A model generated the notes under the pieces. That model was not told where the DNA came from. It searched no databases and saw only the letters and a list, made by a program, of their open reading frames with translations. From Bacteroidales bacterium (GTDB lineage: Bacteria; Bacteroidota; Bacteroidia; Bacteroidales; F082), in assembly GCA_017461665.1 (NCBI GenBank), contig JAFTXI010000009.1, forward strand, positions 16,253 through 80,252: DNA of 64,000 nt, read 5' to 3'. The stretch's first letter is position 1. Each line of letters opens with the position of its first letter. Positions 22,897-52,312 of the stretch are shown in pieces. A program made the position numbers and the translations under genes.

Positions 22897-23475
22897 TTAG
22901 AAAAGTTTAACACCCAAATGAATTAGGAAAGAAACAGCATCTGTGGCAAAAGAACGGGAAGTATAACTATTATAATGGTAATAAGATGATGTCGTTAACT
23001 CTCCAAACAAATATATTCTGTTAGGGAATTTACCTCCCAAACGGACACTTATTCCTGTTGCCTCCCAACCTGGAAGTAAATTAAGTCCACCGCCGAGCAT
23101 GATTCCTGATTCATTTCTAAACCTGAACATAGTCCAAGCACCAAATACTGCATTTTGTGGCTTAATCAAAGGTTTTGTTTCGGCAATGACGTTGGATTGT
23201 GCGGGTGTTTTTTGTTCTTCGTTTATGGAGTGAAAGATGTCTTTTTCTCCATTTTGATATTTTATCATGAAAATGTTGTTTTTTTGCTCGGTGTAAGTAG
23301 GCCCATCTTGATTGCTCCATTTTTTGTACTCAATTTCAGAGCTTCCTACTTTAACGATTTTTGCTTCAATCTCATTTCCATTCGATAAAATGATTACATC
23401 TTGTGAGAATAGATTTGCTGTTATGCCACATAATATCATGCAAGCAATCAGCGAGAAAAATTTTAATGTCTTCAT
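22897..23475 (-). CDS. Small secreted protein of unknown function
   Basis: A 192-residue exported protein: signal FFSLIACMILCGITANLFSQ, then a Bacteroidetes motif DVIILSNGNEIEAKIVKVGS, SEIEYKKWSNQDGPTY and IFMIKYQNGEKDIF, then a linker and a C-terminal outer-membrane-like beta segment (GIMLGGGLNLLPGW, GVSVRLGGKFPNRIYLFGE-like). Function unknown. It lies 55 nt downstream of a structured RNA element (23530-23819) and just upstream of the C10 protease, so the element may control both. Confidence 0.75.
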   Translation of the reverse strand: MKTLKFFSLIACMILCGITANLFSQDVIILSNGNEIEAKIVKVGSSEIEYKKWSNQDGPTYTEQKNNIFMIKYQNGEKDIFHSINEEQKTPAQSNVIAETKPLIKPQNAVFGAWTMFRFRNESGIMLGGGLNLLPGWEATGISVRLGGKFPNRIYLFGELTTSSYYHYNSYTSRSFATDAVSFLIHLGVKLF

Positions 23476-23529: not shown

Positions 23530-23819
23530 AAAAAAAGCGTGAAACTTCTATGCCCGTTCCACGCATCAAGGCTCTCGCATTGCCTTCTAAGTCAGAACGA
23601 GCAACGCCGAAGCCCACGCAATATGCACAAAACATACAACAATATTGTATGTTCATATAAACATATCCGTAGCAATCTCCTTCGTTGCCTTGTCTTTGAC
23701 TTAGATTATTTTTCAAAATTTGCGAGATTTTGATACGTCAAAACAAAGCGTCAAGCAGACGCAATTCATTATGTCACCCTTTACCTTACCCACTTTTGGG
23801 CTTCGGCAAATGGTGGCGC
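23530..23819 (-). ncRNA. Structured leader/small RNA element, copy C
   Basis: Read 5' to 3' on the minus strand. A TATATTTG box (23819-23826) is followed by a GCGTC-loop-GACGC hairpin, then a long imperfect hairpin closed by CTAAGTCA/TGACTTAG whose apex holds GTGCATATTGCGTGG (core 23614-23626). It ends in the hairpin GCGTGGAAC/GTTTCACGC (23537-23564) with a 7-U tract (23530-23536). The gene at 23475 starts 55 nt later. The same architecture occurs at 46003-46230 and 52083-52312. Confidence 0.6.
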
Positions 23820-45262: not shown

Positions 45263-45958
45263 TTATAAATCTTCTCCATTTGCTTGATTATAAACATTGT
45301 CATAATACATCGCAATATAATATTTACCGTAAGTTTCCGATATAATAAACCAAACCGTTTTTTTTGTACACTCATCAAGTAAATCTAACATATATGTGAA
45401 TGTTATTTGTGAAATATCCTCTTCTATTTCCTCTGTTGGATTTTCCAATTCTTCTTCTGTATATTTTTCTAACAATTTTGATTTATATTCATTAACAATT
45501 TTTACAGAATCCACAACACCATCAGCCAGTGATTGATAAAATACAGCCTGATATCTCTTATTATTAACTAACATCTCATAAGAAATGTCTTCATCATAAG
45601 GAATTGTTTGCTCCTCATCTCTCGGTATATATTTGGGATTGTTTTCAAATTGACTGCAAAGTTTGTTAAATCTTATTTTTATTGAAGTTTCATCAACAGG
45701 TGTCTGATCGGCAAGCATTATACGATACACTTTATTATTGTTAGTAACAACATAAACCGTTACATCAGTACCATTAAACTCGCCTTCTAAAATTTCTCTG
45801 TCATAAGATGAACTGACAAAACCTTTCGCTTTAAGTTTATCAATCACATCATGTTTGTATCCATCAACAGGAATACCTAAAAATTGCGTAACATCTTTCT
45901 GTGCAAACAATACTATTGAGCAGAATAGCACAATAATGGTTAATAAAATTTTCTTCAT
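45263..45958 (-). CDS. Small secreted protein, paralogue of 51444-52016
   Basis: A 231-residue exported protein: signal ILLTIIVLFCSIVLFAQ, then QFLGIPVDGYKHDVIDKLKA KGF, EILEGEFNGTDVTVYVVTNN and KVYRIMLADQTPVDE. The pattern F-x-GIP-hydrophobic-x-G, followed by ILEG-x-F and V-x-Y/V-Y-x-I, also occurs in the protein at 51.4-52.0 kb, so they are paralogues of a common Bacteroidales small secreted family. No catalytic motif. It sits 45 nt behind RNA element A. Confidence 0.7.
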   Translation of the reverse strand: MKKILLTIIVLFCSIVLFAQKDVTQFLGIPVDGYKHDVIDKLKAKGFVSSSYDREILEGEFNGTDVTVYVVTNNNKVYRIMLADQTPVDETSIKIRFNKLCSQFENNPKYIPRDEEQTIPYDEDISYEMLVNNKRYQAVFYQSLADGVVDSVKIVNEYKSKLLEKYTEEELENPTEEIEEDISQITFTYMLDLLDECTKKTVWFIISETYGKYYIAMYYDNVYNQANGEDL

Positions 45959-46002: not shown

Positions 46003-46230
46003 AAAAAAGAAACGTGGAACTGTATGTTTACATCTCTATGTGAAGGTGCTAGGAAAAACCTTTGTGTACTGATGTATTTATAACAGCACCACGCTATAAG
46101 CATGGAGACAATTATATCACCTCTTGTACACTGTGTTTAAGTTTCCTAGGCTTTTCACATACAAGAAGAAGACATAACGCTTCTTATTTATTTCAATATG
46201 TAGCGGAAAGAGTTGCCTCAATCCGTTTGC
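46003..46230 (-). ncRNA. Structured leader/small RNA element, copy A
   Basis: Read on the minus strand: TACATTTG box (46230-46237); hairpin CGGATTGAGGCAACTCTTTCCG-like (20-nt stem-loop); hairpin AAGAAG-CGTTATGT-CTTCTT; then a long hairpin with arms TATGTGAA/TTCACATA, CTAGGAAA/TTTCCTAG and GTGTAC/GTACAC; apex CCATGC-TTATA-GCGTGG (46089-46105). It ends CACGTTTCTTTTTT with the U-tract at 46003-46008. Gene 45958 starts 45 nt downstream. Same plan as copies B and C, with different arm sequences, i.e. structure rather than sequence is kept. Confidence 0.62.
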
Positions 46231-46303
46231 AAATGTAGAGAAAAATTTGAAATAATATGTATTTCCCTAAAATTATTTTAGATTCATGAAAAGGCATTTG
46301 TAA

Positions 46304-46394: not shown

Positions 46395-47519
46395 ATGAAA
46401 GCAATAAAATTTATATCATTAACAATCACGGCATTAGTCATTATGACTTTTTTTAGTTGTGATAGCAAAAGCAAAGGCAAACAAAACACGGCGTCTATTC
46501 CGAAAGTCAGCGTCGCAAAGCCATACGTCATGCCGATTGTCTTACACCGCGATTATCCCGGTTATCTTCAAGCCAACGGTATCATTCAAGTCGTGGGCAG
46601 AGTGAGCGGTTATGTCACAAAGCAGAATTTCAGTTCGGGGCAGTACGTCAATGCCGGCGATCTGCTTTATATCATCGACCCTGTCGTCTATGAAAACGAA
46701 GTCAGTCAAGCGAAAGCGAATCTGAAATCGGCGGAAGCCACTTTAGATTATTACGAAAACAATTACAATAGAATGTTGGAAGCATCTAAAAGCGACGCTA
46801 TCAGTCAGATAGACTTGATACAAGCGGAGACTAACGTACGTACTGCACAAGCCAATGTCGAGAGTGCTAAAGCAGCGTTGAAGACTGCCGAAAAGACATT
46901 AAGTTATTGTTACATAAAGGCTCCTATCTCAGGTAACGTATCCACGAGTGGTGCCAGCGAAGGCGAATACGTCAACGGTTCCGCAAGTCCGGTGCCATTA
47001 ACCATGATTTACAACAACGATCCGATGTTCGCTTATTTTAACATAGAAGACAATCAATATCTTACAATAAAAGCTTCGTCAAAGAATTGGGATTCTTCCT
47101 TACCGAAAAAAGTATATATCAATATGAAAGAAGGGAAATATCCTCCCATCGAGGCTACACCTAATTATATATCGCCGTTCATCAATCTAAAGACTGGAAC
47201 ACTGACTTTGCGTGCTGTCTTTGAAAACTCAAAATACGACTTGAAAAGTGGAATGTACTGTACCGTCTCACTGCCTTACGGAGAAGATGACGCTGCCATT
47301 TTAATTCCAGATGCCTCGACTGGAACCGATCAATTAGGAAGATATATTTATGTTGTGAATAACGATAACACTGTATCGTACAGACATATAGAAGTCGGCG
47401 AGATTATCAACGACAGCCTCATCCACGTCACCTCGGGATTATCGCCGGACGAGAGATTTGTTACAAAAGCCTTGTTGAAAGTCAGGGCCGGAATGAAAGT
47501 CGAACCTATAAATAATTGA
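46395..47519 (+). CDS. RND efflux periplasmic adaptor (MFP, AcrA/MexA type)
   Basis: A 374-residue lipoprotein adaptor: signal ISLTITALVIMTFFSC with lipid-acceptor Cys at about 22. VSGYVTKQNFSSGQYVNAGD is the lipoyl motif, followed by a coiled-coil hairpin (YENEVSQAKANLKSAEATLD to KAALKTAEKTLSYCYIKAPI), a beta-barrel and a membrane-proximal domain. It links the inner-membrane pump (4 nt downstream) to the outer-membrane factor. Confidence 0.93.
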   Translation: MKAIKFISLTITALVIMTFFSCDSKSKGKQNTASIPKVSVAKPYVMPIVLHRDYPGYLQANGIIQVVGRVSGYVTKQNFSSGQYVNAGDLLYIIDPVVYENEVSQAKANLKSAEATLDYYENNYNRMLEASKSDAISQIDLIQAETNVRTAQANVESAKAALKTAEKTLSYCYIKAPISGNVSTSGASEGEYVNGSASPVPLTMIYNNDPMFAYFNIEDNQYLTIKASSKNWDSSLPKKVYINMKEGKYPPIEATPNYISPFINLKTGTLTLRAVFENSKYDLKSGMYCTVSLPYGEDDAAILIPDASTGTDQLGRYIYVVNNDNTVSYRHIEVGEIINDSLIHVTSGLSPDERFVTKALLKVRAGMKVEPINN

Positions 47520-47523
47520 CGCT

Positions 47524-50500
47524 ATGTTTTCAAAATTCTTTATCGACAGACCTATATTTTCCTCTGTCATCTCAATCGTCATTGTGATAGCAGGATTGGT
47601 GACATTAAGGACGCTTCCTATTGCTCAATATCCCGACATCACACCTCCAACTGTCATGGTATCAGCATATTATCCTGGTGCAAGCGCTGAGACAGTGGCA
47701 CAGACCGTCGGCGTTCCTATCGAGCAACAAGTGAACGGAGTGGAGAACATGATGTATATGAGTTCATCATCATCGAGCGACGGAAAATATTCATTGACAG
47801 TGACTTTTGAACTTGGCACCGACATAGACGACGCTGCTATCATGGTGCAAAACAGAGTCAATCTCGCAGAAGCCAATCTGCCTTCTTCAGTGAAACAACA
47901 AGGCGTAAGCGTGTTGAAGAGAAGTCCTAACCAGCTAATGTTCATCGTCTTAGATAGCGACAAACCTGAATACGATGGATTATTTCTCGCCAACTATGCC
48001 AACATTAATATTGTAAATGAGTTAGCTCGATTAAAAGGCGTTGGCGACGTTCATATCTTCGGAGCTTCCGATTACGCCATGCGTGTGTGGTTAGATCCAG
48101 AGATTATGAGAATCAGAGACATAACACCAGACGAAGTCCTTACAATGATAAAAGCGCAGAATATGGAAGTATCTGCCGGTTCCGTCGGCGCTCCTCCTAC
48201 CTCAGGCGATATGGCGTTCCAATACAGCATCAGCACCAAGGGACGACTCATCGACGTGGAAGAATTCGGCAATATCATCATTCGCTCAACAGACGACGGT
48301 AAGTACCTACGACTTAAAGACATAGCGAGAATAGAGTTAGGCTCGCAATCTTATTCCGTCACCACGACGATGAAAGGCGAAGAAATCGCTGCGATAGGAA
48401 TAAACCAGATGCCTGGATCAAACGCTTTGGACGTCGCTAAAGAGGTGAAAGCCAAGGTAGAAGAACTACAACATTTTCTTCCAGAAGGTATCAATATGAA
48501 CGTCGTGATGGATAATACAAAATACGTCACAGCTTCCATCGACGAGGTTTTGGTGACAATAGCAGAAACGACATTACTCGTCATCTTGGTGATGTTCTTA
48601 TTTTTACAAAACATAAGAGCCGTCATCATCCCGGCACTCACAATTCCAATATCCTTGTTAGGAACTTTAGCTATTATGAGATTGCTTGGATTTTCTATTA
48701 ACTTATTGACATTATTCGGGTTAGTATTGGCAATCGCAATCGTCGTCGATGATGCCATCGTGGTGGTGGAAAATTCTTCGCGTTTGATACAATCGAAATT
48801 ACGCCGTAGGGACGTATCGCATACGTCCAAGGTATCGCATACGTCAAAATCAGAAATCGCGATACGAAGAGAAGCAGTGACTGATGCAATGCGTGAAATA
48901 GAAGGTCCAATCATCAGCATCGTATTGGTTCTGCTCGCAGTGTTCATTCCAACAGCTTTCATCGGAGGAATTACGGGCGAACTCTACAAACAATTCGCGC
49001 TCACCATCGCAACAGCAACTATCATATCTGGATTTATCTCCTTGATTTTCACACCTGCAATGTGTGTATTATTTTTAAAAGAAGAGAAATGGAACTTCAA
49101 ATGGTTCAATAATTTTTACGACAAGACATTAGGACTTTATGTCAGAATTGTTAAAACTTTTTTGAGAAAACCAGTAATTGCCTTAGGAACTTTTGTTATC
49201 ATTTCTGCATTGACCACATTCATTTTCATAAAGTTACCTAACGAATTTCTTCCAGAAGAAGATTTAGGATATTTCATGATAACTATTCAACTTCCCAATT
49301 CGGCGAGTTTGGATAGGACAGAGAAAGTCACTGCCGAGCTATCGAAGATGTTAGACAAATATCCTGAGATTGATACTTATTTGGTTATCAATGGATTTTC
49401 TTTCATAAAAGGAGGTAACAGCTCTAACGAGGCGAGTATGTTTGTGATGTTGAAAGATTGGGACGAGCGTAAAGGCAAGAATGAAAACGCGATGGCATTG
49501 ATAGAGAGAATCAACAAGGAAGCCACTGACATTCAAGAGGCTAATATCTTCGCCCTAAATCCGCCTTCAATTCCAGGATTAGGAGCTGCCGGTGGATTGG
49601 CTTTCGTACTTGAAGATCGTAACAACTTAGGAACTACAGAGTTAGAAAACGCCGTCGCTACTATCATGGAGAACTATCATCAGGAACCGGCTTTGATGTA
49701 TCTTCAAAGTCAGTTTCAAGGCAACAGTCCTCAATATTTCATCAACATCAACCGCGACAAAATCGGCATGATGGGATTGCAGCTAAATCAAGTCTTCGAC
49801 GCGTTATCTTCCTACATGGGTTCTACTTTTGCCAACGACTTCGTGAAATTCAACAACATATATCAGGTTATCATTCAGGCTAATCCTAACAACAGAAACG
49901 TCATCAGCGACATTTTGAAGTTAAGCGTCGAAAATTCCTCGGGCGAGATGGTTCCTTTCTCGGCATTTTGCAGCATCGACGAGATGATGGGACAGACGCA
50001 AATAAATCGTTACAACCTCTACCCTGCCGCAAACATCACTGCTATCGCCGCCGATGGTTACAGCAGCTCTGAGGCGATGGCGGCGCTCGAGAATCTCACC
50101 GAAGATTTATTAGGTAACAACTTCGGCTACGAATGGACATCTGTCGCTTATCAAGAAAAAATATCAAATGAGAGCGTCTCAATGATTTTCATTCTTGCGA
50201 TAGTATTGGTAATCTTAGTCTTGGCAGCGATGTACGAGAGTTGGGCCAATCCTTTTGCTGTAATTTTAAGCGTTCCTTTAGCACTGATGGGAGTTGTTTT
50301 CGGTTGCATCGTGATGTCGTTGCCGATAAGTATTTACTCTCAGATTGGAATTATTTTATTGATTGCCTTATCGGCGAAGAACGCCATCTTGATTGTCGAG
50401 TTTGCCGTTGACTATAGGAAGTCCGGTATGACGATAGGACAGGCAGCCTTACAGGCCGGACGTGTCAGGTTACGACCTATTTTGATAACCTCCTTGACTT

Positions 50501-50673
50501 TTGTGCTCGGCGTGTTGCCGCTGATGTTTGCGAGCGGTGCGGGCGCCGAAGCGCGAGTCGCTCTTGGCACAGCAGTGGTCTTCGGAATGTTCACAAACAC
50601 GATATTTGGAACCTTATTCGTCCCTAATTTCTTCAGAATAACGGAAGGGTTGCAAGAAAGAATTAGGAATTAG
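47524..50673 (+). CDS. RND multidrug efflux pump (AcrB/HAE1 family)
   Basis: A 1049-residue inner-membrane proton-driven pump. It begins MFSKFFIDRPIFSSVISIVI, has the porter-domain VQNRVNLAEANLPSSVKQQG, the TM4 proton relay VVDDAIVVVEN (Asp-Asp), PTAFIGGITGELYKQFALTI, the repeated second half, and EARVALGTAVVFGMFTNTIF near the end. Full length. In the cytoplasmic loop after TM4, residues about 427-442 (RRRDVSHTSKVSHTSK) come from an in-frame palindromic repeat. Operon with the MFP (4 nt). Confidence 0.95.
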   Translation: MFSKFFIDRPIFSSVISIVIVIAGLVTLRTLPIAQYPDITPPTVMVSAYYPGASAETVAQTVGVPIEQQVNGVENMMYMSSSSSSDGKYSLTVTFELGTDIDDAAIMVQNRVNLAEANLPSSVKQQGVSVLKRSPNQLMFIVLDSDKPEYDGLFLANYANINIVNELARLKGVGDVHIFGASDYAMRVWLDPEIMRIRDITPDEVLTMIKAQNMEVSAGSVGAPPTSGDMAFQYSISTKGRLIDVEEFGNIIIRSTDDGKYLRLKDIARIELGSQSYSVTTTMKGEEIAAIGINQMPGSNALDVAKEVKAKVEELQHFLPEGINMNVVMDNTKYVTASIDEVLVTIAETTLLVILVMFLFLQNIRAVIIPALTIPISLLGTLAIMRLLGFSINLLTLFGLVLAIAIVVDDAIVVVENSSRLIQSKLRRRDVSHTSKVSHTSKSEIAIRREAVTDAMREIEGPIISIVLVLLAVFIPTAFIGGITGELYKQFALTIATATIISGFISLIFTPAMCVLFLKEEKWNFKWFNNFYDKTLGLYVRIVKTFLRKPVIALGTFVIISALTTFIFIKLPNEFLPEEDLGYFMITIQLPNSASLDRTEKVTAELSKMLDKYPEIDTYLVINGFSFIKGGNSSNEASMFVMLKDWDERKGKNENAMALIERINKEATDIQEANIFALNPPSIPGLGAAGGLAFVLEDRNNLGTTELENAVATIMENYHQEPALMYLQSQFQGNSPQYFININRDKIGMMGLQLNQVFDALSSYMGSTFANDFVKFNNIYQVIIQANPNNRNVISDILKLSVENSSGEMVPFSAFCSIDEMMGQTQINRYNLYPAANITAIAADGYSSSEAMAALENLTEDLLGNNFGYEWTSVAYQEKISNESVSMIFILAIVLVILVLAAMYESWANPFAVILSVPLALMGVVFGCIVMSLPISIYSQIGIILLIALSAKNAILIVEFAVDYRKSGMTIGQAALQAGRVRLRPILITSLTFVLGVLPLMFASGAGAEARVALGTAVVFGMFTNTIFGTLFVPNFFRITEGLQERIRN
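48803..48847 (+). repeat. Palindromic repeat inserted in frame in the RND pump gene
   Basis: GGACGTATCGCATACGTCC (48810-48828) followed by GTATCGCATACGTC (48832-48845). The same palindrome lies at 17491-17508 and (reverse) 61002-61020, both intergenic. Confidence 0.9.
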
Positions 50674-51443: not shown

Positions 51444-52016
51444 TTATAAATCATCGTAAGAATTTTGATTTTCCTCTTGTTCATTCAACGCATCACCAAT
51501 AGCATCTACATAATAAAGCCTCACACATGGACTATTCATTATCAGAAGCATAATTTTACCCTCACTCAATTGAAAATTACTCGAATGAAGTGACTGACCT
51601 AACCTTATTGCCTGCAGTTCATATCCATCACCTTCATAATATGGATCCAAAAAGCCTTCCGTTACATCAGGTTTAATATTATACTTGGTTCTAATTTGTT
51701 CTTTTAATTTTTTATAATCAGATTTTAATGTCCACCAACTATCTTTAGAATCAAATTTAACTAATATCTGATAAACAATTTTAGTTTTAGGTGTTCTCCA
51801 GACATATAATTTACAACTTTCATTTGCGAACTTTCCTTCCAATATTGCAGCATCTTCTTCAATTTCTATTAACTCATAACCTTGTACTTTAAGTTTATCA
51901 ATCATGCTATCAATACTTCCGGTGATAGGAATACCTTTAAACTCTAAATGAGATTCGGTCTGTGCATTCACGCCTATAGAAAATAGGACAAATAGAATTA
52001 AAACTAACTTTTTCAT
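51444..52016 (-). CDS. Small secreted protein, paralogue of 45263-45958
   Basis: A 190-residue exported protein (start at 52016, signal KKLVLILFVLFSIGVNAQ). EFKGIPITGSIDSMIDKLKV, AAILEGKFANESCKLYVWRT and KIVYQILVKFDSKDSWW match the paralogue behind element A. The longer frame from 52040 puts charged residues before the signal and is less likely. Function unknown. The start is 67 nt after the U-tract of RNA element B. Confidence 0.7.
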   Translation of the reverse strand: MKKLVLILFVLFSIGVNAQTESHLEFKGIPITGSIDSMIDKLKVQGYELIEIEEDAAILEGKFANESCKLYVWRTPKTKIVYQILVKFDSKDSWWTLKSDYKKLKEQIRTKYNIKPDVTEGFLDPYYEGDGYELQAIRLGQSLHSSNFQLSEGKIMLLIMNSPCVRLYYVDAIGDALNEQEENQNSYDDL

Positions 52017-52082
52017 AATTTTCTTTTTTAAGTTATACATTATGTTAATAAATCATTTTTCATTTTCATCACGCATAACTTG

Positions 52083-52312
52083 AAAAAAGAAAGCGTGAGT
52101 TGGTCATCACGCCTGAAAGGTACTACCACATACCAGCACACAAGACAACACAACGCCACGCTATGCGCAGGCGTAAATGTCTATTATCCTTGTGTGCTTT
52201 TTGAAAGTGGTAGTTTCTTCAAGCAAGAACAATAGCAAACGCTATTTATACACGATTCGGTAACAGACTACTTCGCTCAATTAGTCTTTCGTCGGCTACC
52301 GATTATCTTTGC
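52083..52312 (-). ncRNA. Structured leader/small RNA element, copy B
   Basis: Read on the minus strand: TATCTTTG box (52312-52319); hairpin with arms TCGGTA/TACCGA and AGACTA/TAGTCT; hairpin AATAGC-GTTT-GCTATT; long hairpin with ACTACCAC/GTGGTAGT and AGCACACAAG/CTTGTGTGCT; apex ACGCCTGCGCATAGCGTGG (core 52153-52174). It ends with terminator hairpin GCGTGA/TCACGC (52093-52112) and U-tract (52083-52088). Best-preserved copy. Confidence 0.65.

Follow-up and report, generated by a model that had tools for sequence, protein, structure and literature searches.

Within a 64,000-nucleotide stretch of a Bacteroidales contig, called the window here, an initial annotation had described three minus-strand elements, A, B and C, as copies of one structured RNA: a TAnnTTTG promoter, short 5' hairpins, a long imperfect hairpin with a conserved apex, a terminator-like U-tract and a small secreted-protein gene shortly downstream. 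It had left open whether they are attenuating leaders, riboswitch-like elements or independent sRNAs. Here we ask whether element A belongs to a genuine RNA family and what such an RNA might do. Judged by comparison with its relatives, element A is a real structured RNA on the minus strand (46009-46183), and the initial annotation had understated it. We consider it reasonably likely that A represents a widespread RNA family whose members serve in cis as two-state 5' leaders, probably acting on translation.

Element A and its relatives in the window

All parts claimed for A, namely the TAnnTTTG promoter, the 5' hairpin, the arms, the apex, the U-tract and the downstream ORF, were found on the minus strand (Table 1). 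The arms are TATGTGAA/TTCACATA, CTAGGAAA/TTTCCTAG and GTGTAC/GTACAC, with the apex CCATGC-TTATA-GCGTGG. The 5' hairpin probably lies close to the predicted transcription start. The conserved unit had been thought to end at the U-tract, but it runs further, up to the hairpin at 45994-45974.

Table 1. Features of elements A, B and C and of the genes that follow them (window coordinates)
Feature	Position	Strand	Basis or remark
Promoter -7 motif TACATTTG (TAnnTTTG)	46230..46237	-	sequence; predicted
5' hairpin GGATTGAGGCAACTCTTTCCG	46204..46224	-	folding
Core of element A, 175 nt	46009..46183	-	models R1 and R2 (A in both training sets); covariation
P1 5' strand GAAGCGT	46177..46183	-	covariation; alternative partner is the local hairpin P0 (weak)
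Possible leader ORF ATG TCT TCT TCT TGT ATG, then stop TGA (MSSSCM)	46158..46175	-	family pattern, not universal
Apex 3' strand GCGTGGTGCTGT, the core of the initial annotation	46083..46094	-	partner either local, within the apex, or the 3' terminal strand
S2 5' strand, bulge CAGTTCC within the closing stem	46016..46022	-	family comparison
P1 3' strand ACGTTTC	46009..46015	-	covariation
U-tract TTTTTT, immediately 3' of P1	46003..46008	-	sequence
3' hairpin TTCCTT-GA[GGAACTG]-AAGGAA	45974..45994	-	S2 3' strand GGAACTG (45986-45980) in the loop
Gene after A, 231-aa protein with signal-like N-terminus (KDVTQFLGIPVDGYK...)	45263..45958	-	ORF list; start at 45958
Element B core	52090..52245	-	apex GCGTGGCGTTG complementary to 3' strand CCAACTCACGC
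Gene after B	51444..52040	-	same family as the gene after A: 32.6% identity, E 9e-10
Element C core, long inserts in the apical part	23534..23767	-	apex GCGTGGGCTTC complementary to AGAAGTTTCACGC
Gene after C, signal-peptide-like protein	22897..23475	-	not in the cluster of the gene after A

Compared with 200 dinucleotide shuffles each, the fold z-scores of A, B and C were -5.5, -5.3 and -6.0, and none of the shuffles was as good (0/200 in each case). Two covariance models were used, R1, trained on 13 A-like sequences, and R2, trained on 53 sequences that included A and excluded B and C. R1, to which B and C were unseen as well, found both, B with an E-value of 1.2e-5 and C with one of 1.1e-3. 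In the 64-kb window R2 gave 46.4 bits for B (E 8e-10) and 36.4 bits for C (E 2.5e-7), while the next best match after the three elements had an E of 0.49; all these E-values are rough, the calibration having been shortened. Because models without B or C in their training find both, the proposal that A, B and C form one family is supported by sequence comparison.

When the downstream genes were clustered, those after A and B fell together in the largest group (14/164). Neither the gene after A nor the gene after C gave a Pfam match. Beside A, on the opposite strand (46395-50673, plus), lies an efflux-type pair of a HlyD-family protein (46395-47519, by Pfam) and a 1049-aa ORF.

Distribution of the family

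By blastn, further copies resembling A turned up within this genome and among relatives. The count of three copies applies to the window only, since the genome itself holds 12 at E <1e-5 (R2). Two of the copies (contig C24, 42959-43116 and 43212-43384) follow each other with a gap of 95 nt and precede a single lipoprotein-like gene, an arrangement known from tandem riboswitches. With R1, 90 of 99 genomes from the genus of the window carried copies, up to 13 per genome, as did 79 of 295 from the order. R2 detected copies in 52/392 genomes of a phylum sample and in 5/99 genomes of another class of the phylum, where four were weak and three of the five genomes are also part of the 392-genome sample. 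These large genome searches were run with stricter filters, by which weak copies are lost. Judging from contigs that carry names, the order is probably Bacteroidales and the phylum Bacteroidota.

An exact 19-mer scan returned at least 80 loci. Among the matches listed are Bacteroides, Phocaeicola, Parabacteroides, Prevotella, Alistipes, Barnesiella, Coprobacter and many MAGs of the order, as well as two contigs of viral collections. Among the matches listed, a single contig is labelled as another phylum, from a Geobacteraceae MAG, and it gave no model match at E 1e-5. Moreover, blastn with one copy (L053) found seven plasmid and three phage records, and blastn with A found five plasmid records; the gene tables of these records contain no RNA genes, so that a missing annotation of the element is uninformative there. 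Contig L170 has a divergent pair of copies on opposite strands of a single region (1146-1302, minus; 1872-2033, plus).

The covariance-model search against Rfam 15 gave no match in the window, and permissive scans of 12 and 18 further loci gave none above the gathering score. The single Rfam match that overlaps an element is the plant miRNA MIR398 on locus L009 (same strand, 27.3 bits at a cut-off of 55, E 0.039). A known Rfam 15 family was therefore rejected, as no score reaches the gathering cut-off. Searching the literature for a Bacteroidales leader RNA with a pseudoknot, or for a noncoding RNA with the cargo of a Bacteroides mobilizable transposon, gave no match either. Judged against Rfam 15 and the literature searched, the results support a family without a named counterpart; the supplements of candidate-RNA surveys may hold entries for it. 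The initial annotation, which had recognised no named family, was right in this for the window and 30 family loci. A covariance search, as it had suggested, has returned a widely distributed family with compensatory changes and without an Rfam match.

An RNA structure on the strand reading into the gene

The element is one long multi-helix hairpin. In 87 aligned copies 97.1% of the pair cells hold standard pairs and 21 of the 40 pairs show double-sided changes, values that none of 500 shuffles reached. Double-change cells numbered 341, against 101.7 in the shuffles, and structures slid along the alignment were only 41-45% paired. With a broader alignment, RNAalifold recovered the helices P1, P2 and P3, with double changes in 21 of 28 pairs; both alignments had been fitted to R1, which favours structure. 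The suggestion of a selected RNA structure whose arms keep pairing is borne out by these numbers, and the conserved, covarying structure (in alignments fitted to R1) resembles an aptamer, as expected of a riboswitch.

G-U pairs greatly outnumber A-C pairs (527:22; broader alignment, 290:23). In 98% of 180 elements, the sense strand is also more stably folded than the antisense strand. Therefore, the strand reading into the gene most likely acts as RNA. Of 181 elements, 156 have TAnnTTTG no more than 110 nt before P1, with 15.3 expected from shuffles, and in 119 of these 156 it starts 40-60 nt upstream of P1. The 5' regions of 147 elements have a mean fold z of -2.3. The local hairpin P0 was considered as a strong switch partner of P1 and rejected, its signal being weak (mean z -1.24; stems of at least 5 in 79% versus 59% of shuffles).

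A leader before unrelated genes

For the counts that follow, identical elements were collapsed, giving 148 unique copies of 173 (to which B and C were then added), 185 of 214, and 231 in later tests. An ORF starts at most 150 nt downstream in 168 of 179 unique copies, copies with less than 400 nt of downstream DNA having been excluded (179 of 185 kept), and the commonest bin is 50-59 nt after the core. The 164 downstream genes fall into 107 clusters. Neither a dominant Pfam family nor a shared metabolic theme was found among the 99 of 107 cluster representatives that were scanned. By a crude N-terminal test applied to downstream proteins of at least 120 aa, 110 of 137 look exported, compared with 125 of 378 neighbour ORFs of the named 8-kb loci. 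Taken together, the comparison indicates that the family is a 5' leader RNA before unrelated, mostly exported-looking protein genes.

A pseudoknot near the start codon

A bulge of 7 nt lies in the 3' strand next to P1, on its inner side; in 107 of 148 unique copies this bulge reads CAGTTCC. Its complement lies in the loop of a downstream hairpin; in A, CAGTTCC (46022-46016) faces GGAACTG (45986-45980). We call this pairing S2. When 43 variant bulges, including those of B and C, were matched with their own downstream windows, the summed score was 225, whereas permuted assignments had a mean of 162.5 and a maximum of 185 (0/2000). Compensations include AAGCACC/GGTGCTT (L017), CAAACCC/GGGTTTG (L180) and AAGTACC/GGTACTT (L188). 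The flanks of the S2 hairpin are complementary as well, with a mean stem score of 4.97 versus 3.65 after permutation (permuted maximum 4.00). From the end of the S2 helix to the ATG the median distance is 22 nt (n=106).

Of 184 elements, 110 have an S2 score of at least 5, against an expectation of 17; C is among them with a score of 5, and B is weak, lying below. Comparative evidence thus demonstrates the S2 pseudoknot pairing in most, not all, copies. By eye, the S2 hairpin is absent from three loci (L163, L133 and L084), and the latter two have AGGAG shortly before the ATG. In seven copies of a subtype with GAAGC..TCGCTTTGA (L210, L211, L213, L218, L219, L223 and L225, all from the phylum sample) the S2 partner is missing from its usual position, with scores below 5 in six of them and a 5 only at +65 in L218. 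An ORF of 55 codons starts within 150 nt in one of the seven. This subtype may be a separate functional branch.

Two proposed competing folds

The apex core GCGTGG..CTG is complementary to the whole 3' strand CAGTTCCACGC, and in A the duplex of the apex 3' strand with the 3' terminal strand has -16.1 kcal/mol. Across the family, an element's own apex and 3' strand form a more stable duplex than permuted partners do (-16.29 versus -14.76, n=223; among variants -15.79 versus -13.46, n=111; 0/500 each). This test excluded 8 of 231 elements for lack of a GTGG apex, and shared ancestry remains in the permutation. The own pairs were more stable than the permuted ones in all five sets (0/500 each), and the outer part alone gave -4.82 versus -3.45 (n=97). 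The support for this alternative helix rests on its outer part, because its innermost six pairs are nearly invariant. Compensations are seen in L199 (CTATACT/AGTATAG), L206 (GTAAC/GTTAC), B (GTTG/CAAC) and C (CTTC/GAAG). Poorly pairing copies are the minus-strand copy of L170 (-2.7 kcal/mol), L185 (-11.2 kcal/mol) and L178 (-11.5 kcal/mol). That the apex 5' strand mimics the 3' strand was also considered; the test was negative, with 153 of 500 permutations doing at least as well as the real data. We regard the alternative apex helix as probably real, with less certainty than the pairings above; the permutation keeps ancestry and gives support, not proof.

A real alternative helix would force the 3' strand to pair either within P1 and S2 or with the apex, and the element would be a two-state switch. 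We propose that the 3' terminal strand, made up of the bulge and the P1 3' strand (CAGTTCCACG.. in A), takes one of two exclusive partners. In the first state it would close P1 with GAAGCGT, while the bulge would pair with the loop of the hairpin some 22 nt upstream of the start codon, resulting in a pseudoknot that adjoins the ribosome site. In the second state it would pair with the apex core GCGTGG..CTG, leaving P1 and the pseudoknot open. A signal read by the apical domain may set the choice of fold and thereby the translation of the downstream gene, and termination at the U-tract after P1 may contribute. Competing folds are a further property of riboswitches, and here complementarity and covariation support both putative folds. 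Comparison of the copies is what demonstrates the RNA family, its sense strand, its leader position and the helices of P1 to P3 and the apex; from these we infer the exchange of folds, the translational output and the existence of a signal.

Alternative explanations

The main rival of a translational two-state leader is transcription attenuation, which we hold to be possible but doubtful. P1 and the U-tract would then be an intrinsic terminator and the pairing of apex and 3' strand an antiterminator, so that readthrough and not translation would be controlled. The competition of P1 and the apex pairing for one 3' strand fits this explanation, and so do the first seven positions after P1, which hold 50-76% T before the sequence becomes A-rich (149 elements); at least five T in seven occur in 58% of 203 elements from outside the phylum-wide sample. 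However, the T-run is often broken within that sample (at least five T in 43% of 28), P1 has 7 bp with a 7-nt bulge above, and the covarying S2 partner lies 3' of the U-tract. A simple terminator with a loop of 3-8 nt was rejected at A, where the scan finds none.

Alternatively, the pseudoknot could recruit ribosomes or protect the mRNA constitutively, without switching and without a ligand. The rather constant position of the S2 end about 22 nt before the ATG, beside and not over the expected 30S site, would suit such an element, as would the lack of a pathway common to the downstream genes and the presence of the same leader before mobile cargo genes. We nevertheless find this explanation rather unlikely, since it accounts neither for the covarying apex pairing of the same strand nor for an apical domain as large and as conserved as this one.

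A third explanation starts from a short leader ORF: a ribosome translating 4-9 codons from an ATG in the P1 region would keep P1 open, and the leader would sense translation. Such an ATG is present in 171 of 231 unique elements. In 124 distinct ATG-bearing cases an in-frame stop follows within 9 codons in 95%, compared with 56% and 25% for the other frames. The stop comes either early or as a TAG/TGA in P3, with neither in only 3 of 112 cases, a tabulation that excluded 16 of 128 for lack of the P3 motif. Of 33 cases with the P3 stop in another frame, 30 have an earlier stop. Moreover, the P3 triplet TAG/TGA tracks the presence of the ATG (165/171 ATG-bearing versus 14/60 ATG-less elements). 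Against this stand the 60 of 231 elements without an ATG, among them B, C and 27 of the 28 elements of the phylum sample (ATG in 1/28), so that the leader ORF was rejected as a family-wide feature. The peptides are not conserved, and the counts are not phylogenetically independent. The case for the leader ORF itself appears only moderate, because B and C have no ATG, the sequences are related and TAG/TGA in P3 is kept even out of frame, where another constraint may act. Gating by a ribosome seems rather improbable to us on balance. A broader version of it strikes us as less probable still: in a pathway-free Bacteroidota leader, the ribosome on the 4-9 codon ORF would open P1, the 3' strand would shift to the apex, and accessory proteins, exported or encoded by mobile cargo, would then be expressed, with chromosomal genes and mobilisable elements plugging new genes behind the same switch.

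We think it quite unlikely that the element is an independent, trans-acting sRNA ending at the U-tract. It has its own promoter motif and a U-tract, and the seven GAAGC..TCGCTTTGA copies, with one nearby ORF among them and no usual S2 partner, would agree with this. In most other copies, however, the covarying pseudoknot partner lies beyond the U-tract, and genes for exported proteins are enriched downstream. Among the three options of the initial annotation a leader fits best, because the distance to the ORF is rather fixed and a covarying helix lies 3' of the U-tract.

Mobility and sequence exchange

A link of the leader family to mobile DNA was found in 23 of 267 loci, which have a relaxase homologue whose end lies 88-245 nt upstream from the core; these loci include places counted twice, and for distinct cores the figure is 15 of 228. 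The relaxases are only about 26-74% identical, though the cores stay similar, and the gene behind the core varies in mobilisable elements, for instance a DarT-domain gene or a beta-lactamase gene. A tblastn search with the pBUN1 beta-lactamase protein for further resistance-gene leaders gained nothing. In four loci (L101, L126, L163 and L165) the leader stands between the relaxase gene and the cargo of mobilisable elements. Homology between L101 and L126 breaks off precisely at the core's 3' end; it picks up again within the second ORF, beyond an additional gene. Near-identical cores before unrelated genes are thus partly explained by mobilisable elements. The initial annotation had named the end of a mobile element as an explanation that would count against its RNA; the mobile link exists, but in the stretches examined the core sits between relaxase and cargo and not at an element end. 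At another locus (L002, about 570-640 and 2610-2680) a promoter-like repeat (GAATGTTAATAATTTTTAAC..CCTTGACAG..TTTGC) occurs twice, flanking a GNAT-like gene, the element and a SGNH-like gene (names given by eye).

Elsewhere, the element travels with its gene. Elements before homologous genes in different genomes have a median similarity of 0.883 (17 pairs), whereas the medians for unrelated genes are 0.766 within a genome (132 pairs) and 0.748 between genomes (1618 pairs). Wholesale gene conversion within a genome was rejected, as copies within a genome are barely more alike (0.766 versus 0.748); two genomes have a higher internal identity (0.838 in G282 and 0.798 in G370).

A DNA feature folding as single strand, such as a recombination site, element end or origin, could explain 96-99% identical cores before unrelated genes with unrelated flanks, the L101-L126 homology that stops at the core's 3' end and the upstream relaxases, but appears very unlikely given the excess of G-U over A-C pairs, the better folding sense strand, the conserved promoter motif and ORF spacing, the 244 of 267 loci without a homologue of the two relaxases tested (upstream DNA often being short) and the greater likeness of elements before homologous genes across genomes (0.88) than before unrelated genes within one (0.77).

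Relation to known systems and significance

The family resembles riboswitches and other structured cis-leaders in its long conserved 5' leader, the pseudoknot near the start codon, the two proposed competing folds and the conserved internal loops. It differs from riboswitches in having 107 clusters among 164 downstream genes without a pathway theme, up to 13 copies per genome and no Rfam match. A second comparison is offered by the tetQ attenuator, which has a short leader peptide and hairpins. The tetQ attenuator of CTnDOT is listed as one of translation (PMC5418344), and by that description it is a Bacteroides leader that controls translation on a mobile element, as may hold for members of our family. 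Unlike in tetQ, the leader ORF of our family is variable and absent from 60 of 231 elements, and the RNA serves many genes.

GibS and FopS of Bacteroides thetaiotaomicron are described as a multicopy RNA family with own promoters, and FopS as a trans-acting RNA with a single-stranded 5' part and a terminator hairpin that was deposited in Rfam (PMC11697453). Our family is likewise a multicopy Bacteroides RNA, with own promoter motifs. As far as that description goes, identity with these sRNAs was rejected, since the element is a long multi-helix hairpin and not a 5' seed with a terminator, and has no Rfam 15 match. Fremin and Bhatt (2021) reported candidate structured RNAs of Bacteroidetes, some of 80-132 bp and called palindromic (PMC8040213). 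We set these beside our family by description only, and their supplements may list a fragment of it.

The reading of A as a two-state leader, if true, would add a frequent structured leader RNA to a major gut phylum, including Bacteroides, Phocaeicola, Parabacteroides and Prevotella. It raises a testable question, namely in what way a single RNA fold can work for more than 100 gene clusters and what is sensed by it. Bacteroidota are largely without Shine-Dalgarno leaders, and the family would give a handle on translation control in this phylum.
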